From IMG/VR virus record IMGVR_UViG_3300035156_000377, positions 1 through 41,016 of that record: a stretch of 41,016 nt of DNA, one strand, 5' to 3'. The notes under the pieces were generated by a model that was given only the letters and a program-made list of their open reading frames with translations, ran no database searches and was not told the DNA's origin. A program made the translations under genes and the position numbers. Below are positions 26,156 through 37,799 of this stretch, piece by piece. Source of the stretch: a virus. Numbering within the stretch: position 1 is the stretch's first letter; every line of letters starts with the position of its first letter.

Positions 26156-27224
26156 ACATCGCAAGGCCGGCTTCGCCGTCACCCTGGACGGCCGCGATCT
26201 CGGCGCCGAATTTGGTGCCGGCGAGGATCTCGGGCCCAAGATCGGACCGCGCCTGATCTCGCTCACCGTCACGGAGAAGCGTGGCGGTGATGCCGACCAG
26301 GTCGATATCGTCATCCACGATCATGACGGCCGCATGGCGCTGCCCAGGAAGGGCGCGCGCCTGCGCGTCAAGCTGGGCTGGGAGGCGGGTTCGGACATCC
26401 CGCTCGGCCTGGTCGACAAGGGCAGCTTCAAGGTCGACGACATCGAATGGGGCGGCCCGCCGGATATCATCACCATCCGCGGCCGCTCGGCCGACGTCGC
26501 CGCCGATTACGCCACCCGCCGCGAAAAGAGCCACCGCGACACGACGATCGGCGCGATCGTGGCCAAGGTTGCCGCCGCCAACGGCCTCAAGGCCAGCGTC
26601 GCGGCCGAGCTCGCCGGCATCGCCGTGCCGGTCCTCGCCCAGGACGGCAAGAGCGACATGGCCCTGGTGCGCGCGCTCGGCCGCCGGCACGATGCCCGCG
26701 CGACCGTCAAGAACGGGCGCCTGATCTTCTCGCCGATCGGCAAGCCGGCCACCGCCAGCGGCCGCGCGATCCCGTCCGCGACTCTCACCCGCCGTGAAAA
26801 CGAGCGCGTGAATTACAAGACCGTCGATCGCGGCGGCGGCGACGGTGTCGAGGCGCGCTGGCACGACCAGTCCGAAGCCAAGCGCAAGACCGTCAAGGCC
26901 GGCGCCGCCGCCAACCCCTCCCCTTCAGGGGAGGGGTCGGGGGTGGGGCAGGTGAAAAAGCCGAAGCGCCTGAAGAAAGTCTACGCCACCGAAGCCGACG
27001 CCCGCCACGCGGCCGAGGCCGAAGCCAAGCGCATCAAACGCGCCGGCGCCGAATGCGATTACGATCTCTCCGTCGGCCGACCCGATCTCTACCCTGATCG
27101 CCCGGTCACCCTGCGCGGCTTCAAACCAGAGATCGACGCCACCGCCTGGCTGATCGCCGAGGCCACGCACACCCTGGAAGCCAACGGGCTCACGTCTAAG
27201 CTCAAGCTCGAGACGCGCGGCTAA
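26148..27224 (+). CDS. D: Tail hub protein D (late control)
   Basis: A 358-aa protein of the P2 gpD family, homologous to the T4 gp27-like hub that holds spike V. FAVTLDGRDLG at the start, VTEKRGGDADQVDIVIHDHDGRM, VKLGWEAGSDIPLGLVDKGSFKVDDIEW and the late YPDRPVTLRGFKPEIDATAWLI are typical. Residues about 256-268 (NPSPSGEGSGVGQ) derive from a repeat inserted in frame. ATG 26148 is used. Its end overlaps the convergent antitoxin gene by four bases. Confidence 0.93.
   Translation: MSEHRKAGFAVTLDGRDLGAEFGAGEDLGPKIGPRLISLTVTEKRGGDADQVDIVIHDHDGRMALPRKGARLRVKLGWEAGSDIPLGLVDKGSFKVDDIEWGGPPDIITIRGRSADVAADYATRREKSHRDTTIGAIVAKVAAANGLKASVAAELAGIAVPVLAQDGKSDMALVRALGRRHDARATVKNGRLIFSPIGKPATASGRAIPSATLTRRENERVNYKTVDRGGGDGVEARWHDQSEAKRKTVKAGAAANPSPSGEGSGVGQVKKPKRLKKVYATEADARHAAEAEAKRIKRAGAECDYDLSVGRPDLYPDRPVTLRGFKPEIDATAWLIAEATHTLEANGLTSKLKLETRG
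26914..26937. repeat. GC-rich hairpin repeat inside D
   Basis: A perfect 10-bp inverted repeat, ACCCCTCCCC-TTCA-GGGGAGGGGT, followed by GGGGGTGGGGC. I recall this type of element as dispersed in sphingomonad genomes. Here it adds about a dozen residues to D without breaking the frame, in a linker before the lysine-rich stretch. Confidence 0.7.
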
Positions 27225-27511
27225 GCCGCCGCCTTCTTGGACGCGGCCGTCAGCTCGAGCTTGAGCCCGGCGAGTACCTTCATCACCGTCTCCATCGTCG
27301 GATTGGCATCGTCGGCCAACGCCTTGTACAGCGACGAACGGCCGATACCGGTGGCGCGCGCCAGCTCGCTCATGCCACGGCCGCGCGCGATCTCGGCGAT
27401 CGCGTTCACGATCACCTTGGGATTGCCGGTCGCGAGCGCGTCGTTGAGCAGCTCGACATGATCTTCCGTCGCGTCCAGATGCTCCATCGGATCGAACTTG
27501 CTTATCTTCAT
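27221..27511 (-). CDS. Antitoxin, HigA-like HTH protein
   Basis: A 96-aa antidote of the addiction-module family. The HTH runs through MSELARATGIGRSSLYKALADDANPTMETVMKVLAGLKLEL. It should bind and neutralise the toxin encoded upstream and repress their promoter. AAGGAGGG lies just before its ATG, giving the antitoxin a stronger translation signal than the toxin. It is second in the pair, 44 bases after the toxin stop, the toxin-first order of HigBA-type modules. It is convergent with D. Confidence 0.9.
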   Translation of the reverse strand: MKISKFDPMEHLDATEDHVELLNDALATGNPKVIVNAIAEIARGRGMSELARATGIGRSSLYKALADDANPTMETVMKVLAGLKLELTAASKKAAA

Positions 27512-27555: not shown

Positions 27556-27849
27556 CTAGTCGAGCCCCGCCACGATCTCCTTTGCTTTTGCGATGTCCCG
27601 CTCCTGCGAACCCTTGTCACCGCCGACCAGCAACAGGATCACCTGTTCGCCGCGCCGCGTGAAATAGAGCCGATAGCCCGGGCCGTGATCGATGCGCAGT
27701 TCCGCAACCTTGTCGCCGACGCTTTTGACGTCGCCGAAATGGCCGATCCGGATCAACGCGATCCGCTTTGCCACTCGCTTGGCGGCGATCAGGTCGCGCA
27801 ACCCGGCGAACCAGCCTTCGAAGATTTCAGTCTGTTGAACTTCGATCAT
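27556..27849 (-). CDS. Toxin, RelE/HigB-type (addiction module killer)
   Basis: A 97-aa protein of the RelE/ParE superfamily killer type. FEGWFAGLRDLIAAKRVAKRI, GHFGDVKSVGDKVAELRIDHGPGYRLYF and VILLLVGGDKGSQERDIAKAKEI are family-typical. Members of the family usually cut mRNA on the ribosome; ParE-like members act on gyrase. I cannot tell the target from sequence. A palindrome between a TATAGT-like -10 and the start codon is the probable autoregulatory operator. Confidence 0.9.
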   Translation of the reverse strand: MIEVQQTEIFEGWFAGLRDLIAAKRVAKRIALIRIGHFGDVKSVGDKVAELRIDHGPGYRLYFTRRGEQVILLLVGGDKGSQERDIAKAKEIVAGLD

Positions 27850-27912: not shown

Positions 27913-28137
27913 CTAGCGCCGATGCCGGTGCAAGAAGTTCAGCAGCTTCAGCCCATCCTCGGTCGGCACGGTGCCGGTATATCGGCATGTGTTGCACGAT
28001 CCGCCGCCTTGGTAATGGTTGCCCTGCCGGACCGGCGCGATCTTGCCGGTGCCTTGGCAATCCGGACAGACCCGCTCCAGCGCCGGCAGCGCGCCCGTGC
28101 CGTCGGCCGCGGGGCCGCCTCTCGGGTCCGTGCTCAT
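27913..28137 (-). CDS. Small zinc-finger protein (DnaJ-type cysteine motifs)
   Basis: A 74-aa protein with CPDCQGTGKI and CNTCRYTGTV, two CxxCxGTG-like knuckles as in the DnaJ zinc domain, which would hold one zinc. There is no J domain. Its start overlaps the end of the nuclease gene by four bases, so the two are co-translated. Homologues of this form are common as unnamed small phage proteins. Role unknown. Confidence 0.7.
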   Translation of the reverse strand: MSTDPRGGPAADGTGALPALERVCPDCQGTGKIAPVRQGNHYQGGGSCNTCRYTGTVPTEDGLKLLNFLHRHRR

Positions 28138-28478
28138 TGCCACCGCCTCGCCTGCCCAGCCCGCACCTGCGCCTCGCCCAGATCGCCGACGCCGGCGGCC
28201 GAGCAGTTCACCAGCGGCCGTCCGTAAACGTCGATCGACACCCGCTCGCACGTCACCCGCCGGCCCGCCGCGATCCGCCGCAGATGATCGCGCGATCGCG
28301 CGCCGGCGGCGTAATCGCAATCCGCCGATCGCCCGCGACGGCTCTGGCACTTGGGCGAACCCGCAACTTCCGGCGCATCGATCCCGGCCAGGCGCATCGC
28401 CCGCCCGCCGTCGCAGCGGATATTGTCGCCGTCGTGAAACGCGGGCGCGGCGCACAGGAATGCGGCGAGCAGCAGCAT
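28134..28478 (-). CDS. Secreted thermonuclease-like protein (SNase fold)
   Basis: A 114-aa protein with a short hydrophobic N-terminus (MLLLAAFLCAAPAF), probably a signal peptide, then an SNase domain. HDGDNIRCDGGRAMRLAGIDAPE contains counterparts of the S. aureus nuclease residues: D18 (D21), R29 (R35), D34 (D40), E37 (E43), and R87 in DVYGRPLV. It could degrade DNA or RNA in the periplasm or outside the cell. Three extra cysteines suggest disulfides. It sits between the Excalibur gene and a zinc protein on the same strand. Confidence 0.82.
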   Translation of the reverse strand: MLLLAAFLCAAPAFHDGDNIRCDGGRAMRLAGIDAPEVAGSPKCQSRRGRSADCDYAAGARSRDHLRRIAAGRRVTCERVSIDVYGRPLVNCSAAGVGDLGEAQVRAGQARRWQ

Positions 28479-28528: not shown

Positions 28529-28804
28529 TCATCTCTCGCAGGCCACGCCGTCGCCGTCGCGATCAATCCGGCGGCTATACCCGGCATCGCCGCTCCGCAC
28601 CGGCGCCGCGCCCGCCGCCCGCGCCTGCGCGCAGCTGCGGAACGATCCGCCACTATACGCGGCCGCGCGCGAGCCCGACCGCTTCGACGCCTTGCTGCTC
28701 GACTTCTTGCGGCTCCGCGCCTCGGCCGCCTCGATCGGCACCGCCAACGAACCCACCGCCGCAACGCTCAGCGCCAGACCCGCCAATCGAAATAAACCCA
28801 ACAT
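28529..28804 (-). CDS. Secreted Excalibur calcium-binding domain protein
   Basis: A 91-aa protein. The signal peptide (MLGLFRLAGLALSVAAVGSL, ending near AEA) is followed by a basic linker (RSRKKSSSKASKRSGSR) and a C-terminal Excalibur domain: FRSCAQARAAGAAPVRSGDAGYS leading to DRDGDGVACE, an EF-hand-like loop expected to bind calcium. ATG 28804 is preferred because an upstream in-frame start would precede the signal peptide. In many bacteria this domain is fused to SNase-like nucleases; here the nuclease is the next gene. Confidence 0.82.
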   Translation of the reverse strand: MLGLFRLAGLALSVAAVGSLAVPIEAAEARSRKKSSSKASKRSGSRAAAYSGGSFRSCAQARAAGAAPVRSGDAGYSRRIDRDGDGVACER

Positions 28805-28815
28805 CTCATTCCCCC

Positions 28816-29556
28816 CTAACGCTGCGCCGCTATGGTCTTCAGCGCTTCTGATAATTCTATGCCCCACGTAACTTCCTCCGGAGCGTGCCGCCCATCAGCG
28901 TCGATGACAGCTCCAGAACTGTCCAGGACCAGCCGCGCCAGTTGAGGGCCGACGGCAGAGGCCGCGATCTTATCCAGCGAGCGGGTCAGGTCACGGCCGT
29001 CCGGGGCTAGGCTGTCGCAGCCGACGAGCACCCGCTCAAGATCCTTGTCGCTTCCTCCGTACCGGAGCGCGTAGCGGCCGAACGCATGCTCCAGCGCTGC
29101 CACCTCCAGGGGATGATATCGGCCGTCGCATCGAGCCATGAACACTAGGATCTTGGCGAGCTCGACCAGCGCCTTGTCATGGACGGGCAAAGCGCCATGC
29201 AAGCACAGCAGCTCGAAGCGCTCCTTGGGGTCACACACCTCGCCCGTCGAATAGTCGATCAGTTCGATGATGCGATCGATCCGAAAGCTCTTCGCCCGTC
29301 GGCTTTCGTGACAATAAGCCATCACCACTTCCGGCCCGCCGAAGCCCTCGATCCGGTGGCAGGTGATGCGCCTCTCGCTGCGCTCACCCTTTGCGTTCTG
29401 GTAGGAGATGTAGCCGCACCAGCCCGACGCTTGATCTCGATCGCTGCCAAAGATTGGCCCCTGCTCGGAGCACGCTTCGGGCAGTCGACCGGAAGGCACT
29501 GGCGGCGTAACCCGCAATGGTTGAACGGCCCGCTCGACCCGCGTGGCGATGTTCAC
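28816..29556 (-). CDS. WYL-like plus TerB-like domain protein under a LexA box
   Basis: A 246-aa protein. Residues about 45-105 (GYISYQNAKGERSERRITCHRI, then FRIDRIIELIDYSTGEV) look like a WYL-type ligand-sensing sheet. Residues about 125-160 (LVELAKILVFMARCDGRYHPLEVAALEHAF) match the metal-binding DG-x5-E pattern of TerB domains. It starts with GTG behind GAGGAG, seven bases away. A perfect alphaproteobacterial LexA box lies 62 bases upstream. Placed next to the repressor on the same strand, it is a candidate SOS-induced antirepressor or damage-response regulator. Domain calls are by eye. Confidence 0.7.
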   Translation of the reverse strand: MNIATRVERAVQPLRVTPPVPSGRLPEACSEQGPIFGSDRDQASGWCGYISYQNAKGERSERRITCHRIEGFGGPEVVMAYCHESRRAKSFRIDRIIELIDYSTGEVCDPKERFELLCLHGALPVHDKALVELAKILVFMARCDGRYHPLEVAALEHAFGRYALRYGGSDKDLERVLVGCDSLAPDGRDLTRSLDKIAASAVGPQLARLVLDSSGAVIDADGRHAPEEVTWGIELSEALKTIAAQR

Positions 29557-29710
29557 CCGCGCCTCCTCGTAATGCCCGTAATTACCGCGACTCCCGCCAA
29601 GCTCTTGTCTCTGTTACAGAACAAAGTGGGAACAATGACCCGAGTCGGCGTGAATAGTACCGCCCTGATGGCGGCCCCAGCTTGTGGCATCGGATGCGCC
29701 CGTTGCACGC
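29557..29710. promoter_or_regulatory. SOS-regulated intergenic region
   Basis: At 29619-29633 it reads GAAC-AAAGTGG-GAAC, which on the minus strand is GTTC-N7-GTTC, the LexA site of alphaproteobacteria. An overlapping TCTGT-T-ACAGA palindrome sits at 29610-29620. The only gene start it can serve is the leftward WYL-TerB gene; the repressor gene ends on its other side. Confidence 0.75.
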
Positions 29711-30205
29711 TCATCTGCGCTGTGCTCGCCGGGGTTCGAGAAGATCGTTGGCGAGAGCTTCAACGGCTGCTTCGTCTTCACCGGCGAGGTCCAAGCCGGG
29801 TGCAATCGTCGCACGTCTCGCGAGCCCGAGTGCTCTGGGAAGATGCCGTGCGAGCTCATGAGCAAGCTCGGCCCCCTGCAATCCAGGCGAAGCCAGCAGC
29901 AATCCTTCGAACATGTGCGCCAGCACCCGTTGGCCTGGCAGTTCGACCGGCATCATGACCGTCTGCACGCTGGGCTCGGGCGGCGGCGGCGGTGCGCCTT
30001 CGTCGGGATCGTCCACTTCGCCGGTCAGGTAAGCCGGTGTTGTCCCAAGTTCTCGGGCAATCCGATGAAGGTGCTTCGACCCATAGGCCTCGCCGCTAAG
30101 CAGGTTATGGATAGCCGATTGGCTCACTCCAACCCGCCGGCCCAGCTCGGACTGGCTGAAACCCCGACGGTTCATAAGAGCACGAAGGCGATCAGCGTCC
30201 AACAC
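29711..30205 (-). CDS. XRE-family phage repressor (C-like)
   Basis: A 164-aa protein with an N-terminal HTH (DADRLRALMNRRGFSQSELG, then RRVGVSQSAIHNLLSGEAYG and LHRIARELGTTPAYLTGEV). A proline-rich hinge (PPPPPEPSV) follows, then a helical, probably dimerising C-terminus. No S24 autocleavage motif is visible, so RecA-stimulated self-cleavage is not expected. GTG 30205 is chosen because it sits directly before the HTH and leaves the operators outside the gene. ATG 30292 would add 29 residues across the operators. It probably represses the rightward early genes. Confidence 0.85.
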   Translation of the reverse strand: MLDADRLRALMNRRGFSQSELGRRVGVSQSAIHNLLSGEAYGSKHLHRIARELGTTPAYLTGEVDDPDEGAPPPPPEPSVQTVMMPVELPGQRVLAHMFEGLLLASPGLQGAELAHELARHLPRALGLARRATIAPGLDLAGEDEAAVEALANDLLEPRRAQRR

Positions 30206-34006: not shown

Positions 34007-34332
34007 TGGGCACCGCCTCCCCACTTATCGCCGAGCTCGCCGACGCGGCCGTGCTCGCCACCGGTGCAAGCCACGTGACGATTAGGCGCGATCTGATCAG
34101 CGACATTCTCTCGGCGCTCATCGAAGCCGAACTGATGCACCGAGCCTCGACCGCGCCTGGGCTCGCATGCTTCGGCGTTCTTCTATCCAGCGCCCAGCAG
34201 CTCGGCCACGCGCTCGACCTCCCCGGCCAAAGTATCACTTTGGCCGGAAATCCCAGCCCGATCGAGGTTGCCGCCCCGATCGGGCCAGTTCCCCCGACAT
34301 TTCCTACAATCTCGGAGACCGCCCATGACTAG
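34006..34332 (+). CDS. Hypothetical early protein
   Basis: A 108-aa protein, helical for residues 5-75 (LIAELADAAVLATGASHVTI, LISDILSALIEAELMHRAST), then proline-rich. Residues about 73-83 (LPGQSITLAGN) come from an in-frame palindrome copy at the start of the flexible tail. It overlaps the ParB gene by eight bases. No family is recognised. Confidence 0.55.
   Translation: MGTASPLIAELADAAVLATGASHVTIRRDLISDILSALIEAELMHRASTAPGLACFGVLLSSAQQLGHALDLPGQSITLAGNPSPIEVAAPIGPVPPTFPTISETAHD
34223..34247. repeat. Dispersed palindrome, copy 6, inside a CDS
   Basis: A perfect 11-bp-arm inverted repeat, core GGCCAAAGT-ATC-ACTTTGGCC. It is in frame in the gene at 34006 and gives nearly the same peptide (GQSITLAG) as copy 2 in lysozyme (RQSSTLAG). 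Confidence 0.85.
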
Positions 34333-35767
34333 CATCGCCGACGCCGCCGTCCAGCTGGGATCGGACCAGCCCGCCACCGTCCCGCTCTCGAAGCTCTACA
34401 TTTCCGGGAAGAACGTCCGCAAAACGGATCGCGAGCTCGACATCGACGCTCTCGCCGACGACATCGAGGCGCACGGCCTGCTCCAGCCGCTGATCGTGAT
34501 CCCGGCCGCCGGCGATCGTTTCGGCGTGATCGCCGGCGGCCGCCGCCTGCTCGCGCTCGAGCGGCTGAAGAAGCGCGGCAAGCTGCACGGCAGCCACGCC
34601 GTCCCTGTGGTTCACCGCGACGCGGTCGACGGCCGCGAAGTCAGCCTGGCCGAGAACCTCCACAAGGTCGCGATGAACCCGGTCGACGAGTTCACCGCCT
34701 ATGCGTCCATCATCGCCGACTATCGCGATCGCGGCGAAGCCGACGAGCAGGTCCGGATCGAACGCTGCGCCCGTCACTTCGGCAAGACCGTCCGCCACGT
34801 CACCGAGCGCCTGCGCCTGGCGGCGCTCGCCCCCGCCATCCTGGACGCGCTGCGCGACGGCGCGATCAGCCTCGACGCCGCCAAGGCTTATGCCGCCTAT
34901 CCCGATCACAAGCTGCAGCTCGAGATCTTCACCGCCCAGGAGCGGCTGCCGGACAAGCATCGCGTCGCCTCCATCCGCGCTTCGCTCGCCGGCCACGTCT
35001 ACCGCGCCGGCGATCGCCAGGTCCGCTATGTCGGCCTCGACGCCTATCGCGCCGCCGGCGGCCGCATGGAGCTCGAGCTGTTCATGGGCTCGGCCGACGA
35101 GGAAGTGCTGGTCGATACCGCGCTGCTCGATCGGCTCGTCCACGACAAGGCCGGCCCGGAAGTCACCCGCCTCGCCCGCGCCGCAGGTTTCGCCGACGGC
35201 ATCGTCCAGCCCTGGGCCGGCGGCAGCTTCGCCCGGCCCAAGGCGCCCGGCGGGTTCACCCTCGTCTACGCGTTTAGCCCGACGCAGCAGGAGCGCGCGG
35301 CCGCGATCGCCATCTACCGCATCACCGCCGACGGCGCCGACCTCGAGCTGGTCCCGGACTATTTCCGACCGCTCGCCCCCGAAGCCGGCCCGGCCGCCCA
35401 AGCGCCCAGCCTGTTCGCCGGCACAGAAGTAACCCGCCCGCCGGCGCGCGCCGAATCGGAGATCGAGCAGCTCGGCCGCCTCCGCCGCCAGCGCATCATG
35501 CTCGAGGCTTTGAAGCGCGCCACCCCGCCGGTAGCGAACACCGCGTTCGCCGGTCGTCTGAACTGGCCGGCAGACCGGGTGATCCAAGGAGAAACGGACG
35601 AGGCCTATATCGTCACCGTCCTGCTCACCATTCCCAAGGCCGACGTCGAACGCCACCTCCCCGCCGCCGAACGTGCGATCGACGCCGAGGAAAGCGGCCG
35701 CGCCCCGCCCGACCCCGATCCCGACGCCGCCGCCTTCGACATCCCAGCCGAAGCGGTGCCGGCATGA
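34325..35767 (+). CDS. ParB/RepB-family protein
   Basis: A 480-aa protein. The N-terminal ParB domain has LYISGKNVRKTDRELDIDAL, LLQPLIVIPAAGDRFGVIAG, the GGRRLLAL nucleotide motif, and SLAENLHKVAMNPVDEF. A KorB/HTH-like DNA-binding region follows (ARHFGKTVRHVTERLRLAAL and LRDGAISLDAAKAYA). Residues 230-480 are a long extension seen in plasmid and phage ParB-like proteins. No ParA gene is in the window. It may act in partition, replication or transcription control. It overlaps its neighbours on both sides. Confidence 0.87.
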   Translation: MTSIADAAVQLGSDQPATVPLSKLYISGKNVRKTDRELDIDALADDIEAHGLLQPLIVIPAAGDRFGVIAGGRRLLALERLKKRGKLHGSHAVPVVHRDAVDGREVSLAENLHKVAMNPVDEFTAYASIIADYRDRGEADEQVRIERCARHFGKTVRHVTERLRLAALAPAILDALRDGAISLDAAKAYAAYPDHKLQLEIFTAQERLPDKHRVASIRASLAGHVYRAGDRQVRYVGLDAYRAAGGRMELELFMGSADEEVLVDTALLDRLVHDKAGPEVTRLARAAGFADGIVQPWAGGSFARPKAPGGFTLVYAFSPTQQERAAAIAIYRITADGADLELVPDYFRPLAPEAGPAAQAPSLFAGTEVTRPPARAESEIEQLGRLRRQRIMLEALKRATPPVANTAFAGRLNWPADRVIQGETDEAYIVTVLLTIPKADVERHLPAAERAIDAEESGRAPPDPDPDAAAFDIPAEAVPA

Positions 35768-36117
35768 GCACCGATGTCACCTCCGACCAGCTGTTCATCA
35801 GCCTGGACGCGACCGTGTCACTCGGCGCGCTATGCAAAGCTGCCGGCATCTCGCTCCCGCCCGGCCGCGACCCGGCCGAGCCGATCGAGATTGAAAGTGT
35901 CGATGTCGATCCCGGCGAGGCCGCGTCCGCGCTGGCCGAGATCGGCATGGGCGGGGATGATCACGAAGAAGAGCAGGAGATGCCTGCTGGCGTCCTCCTG
36001 GATTTCGTGGCGTCCAGCCTTCGCGGCGATCACTTTACGGCCGCCGCCCTGGCGCCCCGCCTGTTCACCTGCGGCAATCTGACCGTCGTAGAAACGGCGA
36101 TCGCGAGGCGGGCATGA
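35764..36117 (+). CDS. Hypothetical acidic protein between ParB and HerA
   Basis: A 117-aa acidic protein (EPIEIESVDVDPGEAASALA, then DDHEEEQEMPAGVLLDFVASSL). It has four-base overlaps with both neighbours, so it is probably produced with the ParB-like and HerA-like proteins and may be a partner of one. No family is recognised. Confidence 0.55.
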   Translation: MSTDVTSDQLFISLDATVSLGALCKAAGISLPPGRDPAEPIEIESVDVDPGEAASALAEIGMGGDDHEEEQEMPAGVLLDFVASSLRGDHFTAAALAPRLFTCGNLTVVETAIARRA

Positions 36118-37799
36118 GCGACGTCCTTGGAACCACCGAAGCCGGCGAGCCGCTCGCGCTGGACCTGGACCGGCTGATCGGCACCCACGCCTGCGTCGTC
36201 GCGAACTCGGGCGGCGGCAAGTCCGGCCTGATCCGCCGCCTGCTCGAGACGACGCATGGTCGCGTCCAGCACATCGTGCTCGACATCGAGGACGAGTTCT
36301 ACACGCTTCGCGAGCGCTTCGATTACGTGATCGCCGGCGGTGACGGTGGCGACGCGCCGATCACGATCGACAGCGCCGAAGGCCTGGCGCTGGCCACACT
36401 GCAGCACGGCTTCTCGCTGATTGTGCAGCTCAACGATCTCGGCGCATCCGCTCCCCAATTCGTCGGCCGCTTTCTGTCCGCTATGATCAGCGCTCCAAAG
36501 CAGCTCTGGCGCCCGGTCCTGGTCGTGGTCGACGAGGCGCAGGTCTTCGCCCCTCAGGACGGGGCCACCGCTGCCACCGCCGGGATGAAAGCGCTGATCG
36601 CGCAGGGCCGCAAGCGCGGCTTCACGGCCGTTTATGCCAGCCAGCGTATCGCCAAGATCTCGGCCGACATCCGCGGCGGGATCAATAACTGGCTGCTCGG
36701 CCGCGTCGGCCAGTCGCTTGATCGCCGCGCCGTCGCCGACCAGCTCGGCTTCGCGAACAGCTCGGCCGAGGCGCGCGACCTGCAAGGGCTGCCCGATCGC
36801 AGCTTCTGGGGCTTCGGCCCGGCGATCGCTAAGGAACCGGTCCTGTTCCGCGTCGCCGACGTCACCACCACCCCGGTCCGCCCCGGCCAAGCCAAGCTCC
36901 CCACTCCGCCCCCGCCCGAAGCTCTGCGCGCAATCCTGGAAGGCATCGCCGCCAGCACGGTCGAACAGAAGCTCGATACGGCAATGGCCGCCTACGACGC
37001 CGGGGCCGAAGTCGGCCAGCTGCTGGTCGAGCGGGACGCGCGCATCGCGGAGCTCGAGGCTGAACTCGCAGCTCTCAGGGCAGAGCACGAGCAGCTGCTC
37101 GGAATTGATGCTGAATGCGACCGCTACCAGACTGGCCTCGGCGCGATCGAGCAGCTCGTGGCCGATGTTCGCGCCGGTCGCGGACCGTTCGCGATCGACG
37201 CTCCGGCCGCGAGTGCAACGTCATTGGGCGTGACAGCCGGAGAGACGGCACCTTCCGGAGCAGGCGTGGAAGCGTTCATCGCCGCTGCGAAGACTCCTCG
37301 CGGCGCCGTCGTCCGCGTGGGCGGTCAACCGAGGCCCGACCCAGCTGGCAAGCCTCACGCGATGGCGCTCAAGATGGTCGAAAAGATGGACGCGCTCGCG
37401 CCGGCAAGGCTGACCTGGCGGCAGCTGTCGTCGCTGCTCGGTTATTCACCGGATGGCGGCTACTTCCGCGCTGGCAAACGCGACGCGCTCGAACGCGGCT
37501 TGCTGAGCGCGAATGACCAGTATGTCTGGTCGGCCAAGCCGGGCGGAGCCCCCCTAGATCGCGCAGCGGCTTTCGATCTGTGGTTGTCGATCCTGCCCGA
37601 GCCCGCTCCGAAAATGATGATGGTGCTTGCCGGCGGAACGCGCGGCCTGTCGAAACAGGAACTCGCGGACGAGCTCGGCTATTCCACGTCCGGCGGTCAC
37701 TTTCGCAAGGGCCTCGCCCTCATGCGCCAGAACGGCGTCTCGGTCGAGACGGGCGAGAACGTCAGGCTCGCCGAGCCGTTGCCGGGTGAAGCGGCATGA
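36114..37799 (+). CDS. HerA/FtsK-type ATPase with duplicated C-terminal domain
   Basis: A 561-aa P-loop ATPase. Walker A is at about 30-37 (ANSGGGKS) and Walker B at 135-141 (VLVVVDEAQ), followed by the GMKALIAQGRKRGFTAVYASQR sensor typical of the HerA/VirB4 superfamily. A coiled coil lies near 305-330 (ARIAELEAELAALRAEHEQL). The C-terminus holds two related units, LLGYSPDGGYFRAGKRDAL and ELGYSTSGGHFRKGLALM, probably winged-helix DNA contacts. It likely pumps or remodels DNA in phage replication or partition. P2 has no such gene. Confidence 0.85.
   Translation: MSDVLGTTEAGEPLALDLDRLIGTHACVVANSGGGKSGLIRRLLETTHGRVQHIVLDIEDEFYTLRERFDYVIAGGDGGDAPITIDSAEGLALATLQHGFSLIVQLNDLGASAPQFVGRFLSAMISAPKQLWRPVLVVVDEAQVFAPQDGATAATAGMKALIAQGRKRGFTAVYASQRIAKISADIRGGINNWLLGRVGQSLDRRAVADQLGFANSSAEARDLQGLPDRSFWGFGPAIAKEPVLFRVADVTTTPVRPGQAKLPTPPPPEALRAILEGIAASTVEQKLDTAMAAYDAGAEVGQLLVERDARIAELEAELAALRAEHEQLLGIDAECDRYQTGLGAIEQLVADVRAGRGPFAIDAPAASATSLGVTAGETAPSGAGVEAFIAAAKTPRGAVVRVGGQPRPDPAGKPHAMALKMVEKMDALAPARLTWRQLSSLLGYSPDGGYFRAGKRDALERGLLSANDQYVWSAKPGGAPLDRAAAFDLWLSILPEPAPKMMMVLAGGTRGLSKQELADELGYSTSGGHFRKGLALMRQNGVSVETGENVRLAEPLPGEAA

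Follow-up and report, generated by a model that had tools for sequence, protein, structure and literature searches.

The locus described here raises the question of how P2-like phages of the Sphingomonadales with non-self-cleaving repressors could sense DNA damage, and the reading developed below offers a testable answer. It lies in a viral stretch of 41,016 nt (IMG/VR record IMGVR_UViG_3300035156_000377, positions 1 to 41,016), referred to here as the window. The phage is P2-like, as judged from its P2-type capsid, GpU, Ogr/Delta and sheath (PF05125, PF06995, PF04606), and Sphingomonadaceae are likely its host clade. An earlier note, made from the window alone, had proposed that a LexA box located beside a repressor gene can only serve a leftward WYL-TerB gene, whose product would be an analogue of Tum of phage 186. 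The features concerned are the following.

29619 to 29633, minus strand: LexA box GTTC-N7-GTTC (GAAC-N7-GAAC on the plus strand), predicted from motif match and conservation in relatives.
29650 to 29958, plus strand: small antisense gene of 102 codons, not in the supplied list of open reading frames (ORFs); candidate SOS-induced antirepressor.
29711 to 30205, minus strand: phage repressor with a helix-turn-helix (HTH) and an "LPxEAALxxMFxxLL" C-terminal domain; no S24 peptidase, matches to HTH families only.
28816 to 29556, minus strand: WYL-TerB protein (PF13280, PF05099) lacking an HTH; interchangeable cargo that the box may also control.
28529 to 28867, minus strand: cargo, Excalibur-domain protein (PF05901); ORF limits as listed, overlapping the end of the WYL-TerB gene.
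28134 to 28478, minus strand: cargo, small secreted-nuclease-like ORF, recognized by eye.
27556 to 27849, minus strand: cargo, toxin of a toxin-antitoxin pair, Gp49-like (phrog_3445).
27224 to 27511, minus strand: cargo, antitoxin of the HI1420 type.

The box, GTTCCCACTTTGTTC, is a strict match to GTTC-N7-GTTC on the minus strand and, as the earlier note had recognized, corresponds to the published alphaproteobacterial LexA motif (PMC8565304). The same motif was found upstream of lexA in 28 of 29 Sphingomonadaceae genomes and upstream of recA in 26 of 30, GTTCCCCTCTTGTTC being an example of the latter. Since strict matches are expected by chance at a mean of 0.9 per 41-kb window, the match in the window alone is weak proof and cannot settle the matter. 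A second strict match at 1639-1653 (GTTCGCTATCCGTTC) is in line with this expectation. The box interiors, scored against a position weight matrix of the lexA and recA boxes, were mildly supportive only (window, p = 0.045; L013, p = 0.13), and this weak score was therefore not used as evidence. Additionally, a promoter and terminator scan of the window locus found none, and the RNA fold of the intergenic stretch was unremarkable (z = -1.0).

The exclusive assignment of the box to the leftward gene was not confirmed on inspection of the opposite strand, on which a conserved gene begins 1-16 nt from the box and runs into the repressor gene. Its start codon is predicted to be the GTG at 29650, with an ATG at 29635 as the alternative, and it is antisense to the 3' end of the repressor gene over 248 nt (29711-29958). 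The non-overlapping part of the small gene shows what reads as a coding pattern, with pairwise differences of 0.45, 0.48 and 0.64 at codon positions 1, 2 and 3, respectively, and an amino-acid identity of 0.37 in the gene's own frame versus 0.19-0.32 in the other five. The encoded protein carries four invariant cysteines (CX3CX2CX3C), which suggest a metal or Fe-S site, followed by two predicted helices, and its predicted structure is a helical hairpin (pLDDT 75). Relatives start approximately 11 residues ahead of the first invariant cysteine and often contain "VRDDLWRELE", followed by a second helical stretch. The window protein matched no Pfam, PHROG or PADLOC family and, by the same comparison, had no sequence relationship to a known antirepressor, one of its relatives gave a sub-threshold match to DUF6158, and an INPHARED search with one relative returned a single weak partial match. 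No clear Shine-Dalgarno sequence or promoter hexamers were seen upstream of the small gene in the window; a Shine-Dalgarno-like purine-rich stretch lies between box and start in many relatives (L157, L257, L259, L266, L268, L272 and L275). One phage also carries a second, partial copy of the gene (L154:5066-5287, minus strand, E = 3e-11).

The small gene was found in 39 distinct prophages, where it almost always overlaps the gene of a short HTH repressor, and these repressors have one conserved C-terminal domain in common; in a single outlier (L273), it is paired with a different HTH protein. A strict LexA box is located just upstream of its start in 26 of these relatives and a one-mismatch box in two (L255 and the more distant L285), whereas 11 have none, and the expectation per shuffled 90-nt region was 0.0019. 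In an alignment on the box, the strict box stands 9-30 nt before the predicted start in 21 loci. Across the 28 box loci, conservation reached 99% in the eight core bases, 56% in the seven interior bases and 42-50% in the flanks. When repressor loci were fetched irrespective of the box, it was present in 5 of 14 with the small gene and in 1 of 66 others (Fisher p = 4e-4). Twenty-odd further loci came from an order-wide search with one small protein and from another search. A viral scan run after the pattern had been noticed, with a single relative of the small protein as query, added six closely related loci, each of which has the box at -34 to -36. An HMM of the small gene detected genome loci outside its building set (L124-L127, L135 and L139). 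A class-level search of 385 genomes did not find the small gene; with no positive control in this sample, all that follows is that the gene is uncommon beyond the order. Taken across these loci, the predicted LexA box in front of the small gene exceeds chance, and the small Cys-rich antisense gene appears to be the constant companion of the box, whose position in relatives is fixed relative to this gene and not to WYL-TerB.

The 11 relatives that keep the small gene without a box (L154, L155, L156, L158, L169, L170, L177, L200, L220, L253 and L254) form one clade in a tree of the 39 small proteins (95/95), so that the box looks ancestral and lost once, and SOS control would not be universal. 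Several of them have TTGAGAAACG-like stretches upstream of the antisense gene in place of the box, suggesting that another signal may control it there. In most box loci (L157, L159, L256, L264-L272, L277-L280, L282 and L283), TTTCCTACA is conserved upstream of the box at a distance of approximately 29 nt, and it sometimes takes the form of an inverted repeat (L273 and L275); this candidate promoter element or operator is not evident in the window itself.

The earlier note had described the neighbouring repressor as devoid of S24 self-cleavage features, and this was borne out, with Pfam giving HTH families only and no Peptidase_S24. Outside the window, S24 calls were made with a home-made HMM; ten relatives of the window repressor were additionally compared with Pfam and lacked S24, three of them matching no Pfam family at all. 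Among 80 viral loci with related repressors, a strict box was found 83-95 nt past the repressor stop in L123, L157, L159, L164 and L166, all with non-S24 repressors; behind the L123 repressor, a relative of that of the window, the box follows about 80 nt past the stop, with unrelated genes behind it. Conversely, an HMM search found the small gene in none of the 39 loci with S24 repressors, and only one of them (L201) has a nearby box. The L201 box, GTTCTCCTTATGTTC, lies 49 nt after the stop of the S24-type repressor, and the cargo there includes a GHKL-type ATPase-like gene.

The C-terminal domain (VTMQVALPSEAALARMFEGLLRP...LARRLPTGLAQL) is common to the repressors accompanied by the small gene, whereas their DNA-binding halves are not. 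Between the repressors of L159 and L278, identity is 19% in the HTH half but 92% in the C-terminal domain, with the same small gene and box, and those of L278 and L280 share a C-terminal domain that is 92% identical despite dissimilar HTH halves and different cargo. As far as these comparisons go, the box, the small gene and the C-terminal domain travel together while the HTH and the cargo get exchanged. However, the antisense overlap alone would hold both genes together; therefore, their co-inheritance is no proof of interaction, and the link between the domain and the small gene could reflect mere physical overlap.

Sequence comparison thus yields a box, a conserved gene with a coding signature, the fixed position of this gene, its association with non-S24 repressors of this domain type, and the swapping of HTH and cargo around it. 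From it, we infer that LexA binds the box, that the small gene is SOS-induced, and that its product acts as an antirepressor and contacts the C-terminal domain, and it seems probable that the box is the LexA operator of the small antisense gene, the product of which would disarm the non-cleavable repressor, with WYL-TerB as replaceable cargo beyond the box. In the lysogen, LexA would keep the small gene off, and the prophage would be silenced by the short HTH repressor, a protein devoid of a RecA-activated self-cleavage domain. Upon DNA damage, LexA would be destroyed and the small Cys-rich helical-hairpin protein made, which would then bind the conserved C-terminal domain of the repressor and disarm it; transcription over the 3' end of the repressor gene may add interference with repressor synthesis. 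The C-terminal domain, the antisense gene and the LexA box would be inherited as one cassette, making whichever HTH repressor is attached SOS-sensitive. With somewhat less assurance, we lean towards regarding it as a portable SOS cassette, in which the stretch encoding the repressor C-terminal domain would also encode, antisense and under LexA, its own disarming protein, a two-gene counterpart of S24. As only the HTH half is exchanged, such a cassette would lend DNA-damage inducibility to unrelated repressors. The general logic of the earlier note, a non-cleavable repressor relieved by a LexA-controlled neighbour as in 186 Tum, is therefore retained, but not WYL-TerB as the actor.

That the leftward gene encodes a WYL-TerB protein was upheld for its WYL domain (PF13280, above the cut-off), whereas TerB (PF05099) reached 20.2 bits, below the cut-off of 24.4. 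Its AlphaFold model (pLDDT 81) matches the fold of PafBC, BrxR, CapW and DriD, and the fold search additionally gave a weak match to a COG3793 tellurite resistance protein (2ou3). Unlike PafBC, DriD, BrxR and CapW, with which it shares the WYL fold, the cargo protein has a TerB-like C-terminal half and no N-terminal HTH, and no HTH was found anywhere in it by Pfam, model or fold search. Most WYL-TerB relatives in viral contigs and Sphingomonadaceae genomes are located directly downstream of a phage repressor, and the INPHARED and plasmid collections contained none. The proteins of L010, L011 and L157 carry fused N-terminal hydrophobic, membrane-like segments. In nine loci (L006, L007, L008, L010, L011, L012, L048, L049 and L168), WYL-TerB stands behind an S24-type repressor with no box near the gene, and other copies behind short repressors of other types are again boxless in front. 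Only three box loci contain WYL-TerB, namely the window, L280 and L157, the last (on the same contig as L005 and L013) being arranged as in the window, with the box GTTCTTAATATGTTC. The box is kept where WYL-TerB is replaced by unrelated cargo, as in L159, L278 and L279 versus L280, and in L164 versus L166, which have repressor and box in common and differ in cargo from approximately 45 nt beyond the box. WYL-TerB as the conserved target of the box was ruled out by this distribution.

It is nevertheless possible, if less expected, that the box governs both directions and that WYL-TerB is extra SOS-induced cargo, dispensable for induction, for example a damage- or ssDNA-sensing accessory or a defence protein. 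WYL-TerB begins 62 nt downstream of the box, its GTG start preceded by GAGGAGG, a good ribosome-binding site, and in DriD and PafBC the WYL domain is responsive to ssDNA (PMC12340889, PMC11804915). In most box loci, where it could be called, a cargo gene starts 35-345 nt away on the cargo side. Moreover, every box is oriented with GTTC-GTTC reading toward the cargo, the same orientation as upstream of lexA and recA, and this is the main point against the box serving the small gene alone. On the other hand, neither the distance on the cargo side nor the identity of the gene is conserved, the cargo being unrelated from locus to locus, and the nine S24-linked and most non-S24 WYL-TerB genes have no upstream box.

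Two further explanations keep the box with the small gene and deny its protein the proposed role. Antisense transcription could itself be the effector, colliding with or pairing to the repressor mRNA and stopping repressor synthesis. This agrees with an overlap of approximately 140-260 nt in almost all box loci, but it appears unlikely considering the in-frame conservation of the protein beyond the overlap, its four invariant cysteines, and the slow decay of existing repressor that a shut-off of synthesis would leave. There is likewise a slim chance that the protein has another SOS task (on RecA, like DinI, in cell division or in late transcription) and is sited there for compactness. Its lack of homology to known antirepressors would fit, as would the DinI homologues near antirepressors in Gifsy and 186 (PMC3121763); however, it is found strictly with non-S24 repressors that have a single type of C-terminal domain, and HTH swaps leave this domain and the small gene together, both of which argue against this reading.

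The earlier proposal of WYL-TerB as a Tum-like antirepressor is very improbable: although the repressor is non-S24, a box precedes the gene and the combination recurs in the three box loci mentioned above, cargo of unrelated kinds accompanies this box and repressor domain in L123, L159, L164, L166, L256-L275, L278, L279 and L282-L284, the gene is also found boxless behind S24 repressors, and three of its versions (L157, L010 and L011) bear N-terminal hydrophobic segments. Finally, a chance match of the window box has a negligible probability and was ruled out by the comparative data, since the approximately 0.9 matches expected per window would not account for the same position in 26 of 39 relatives and in all six loci of the later scan.

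The preferred reading, with the small antisense gene as the source of the antirepressor, resembles several known systems. Tum of phage 186, also encoded by the tum loci of Fels-2 and PSP3, is a LexA-controlled protein that binds the repressor (PMC3121763), likewise in a P2-like phage whose repressor is not self-cleaved. However, Tum has 146 aa with a DinI-like second half, the small protein of the window has no family match to it, and the present gene is antisense to the repressor gene and overlaps it. The antirepressors GftA, GfoA, GfhA and FsoA (Gifsy, Fels-1) are small, LexA-controlled or related proteins relieving non-cleavable repressors (PMC3121763); their Gifsy locus is outside and distant from the immunity region, whereas the present gene occupies the strand opposite the repressor gene itself and its protein has the four-cysteine motif. 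AntC of N15 is also a LexA-controlled antirepressor (cited in PMC3121763), from a different phage type. With LexA-controlled antirepressors in general, the window locus shares a repressor without S24 and a LexA site directly before the small gene. In the TF-smORF modules described by Silpe et al. (2023, PMC10432266), activation is by a phage transcription factor and does not depend on SOS, in contrast to the LexA box upstream of the small gene here, which places it outside that type. None of the openly accessible papers searched describes an antirepressor whose gene is antisense to that of its own repressor.

The candidate antirepressor would thus be antisense to its target, the pair apparently moving between phages with different DNA-binding domains, and its protein represents a small-protein family not previously described. 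As they overlap a known gene on the opposite strand, genes of this kind readily escape annotation, and the locus is a warning that a regulatory site beside an attractive gene may instead serve the opposite strand.

Further SOS-like sites were observed in related prophages. In L047 (G198:C3), where the repressor lacks S24, a strong LexA-like box (GTTCTTTATATGTTC) is located approximately 1505 nt downstream from the start of WYL-TerB. It immediately precedes a short ORF and a gene whose N-terminal HTH is LexA-like, and is possibly a different SOS switch. AT-rich strict LexA-like boxes were also seen at +2828 (L177), +2055 (L214) and +1027 (L219) from the repressor stop, the prophages concerned having repressors without S24 and without an adjacent box. 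The boxes at +1068 in L046, inside a coding frame, and at +3513 in L009 look like chance. In the window itself, the early region at 34268-37799 contains a ParB-like gene, a small ORF and then a HerA/FtsK-like ATPase gene.
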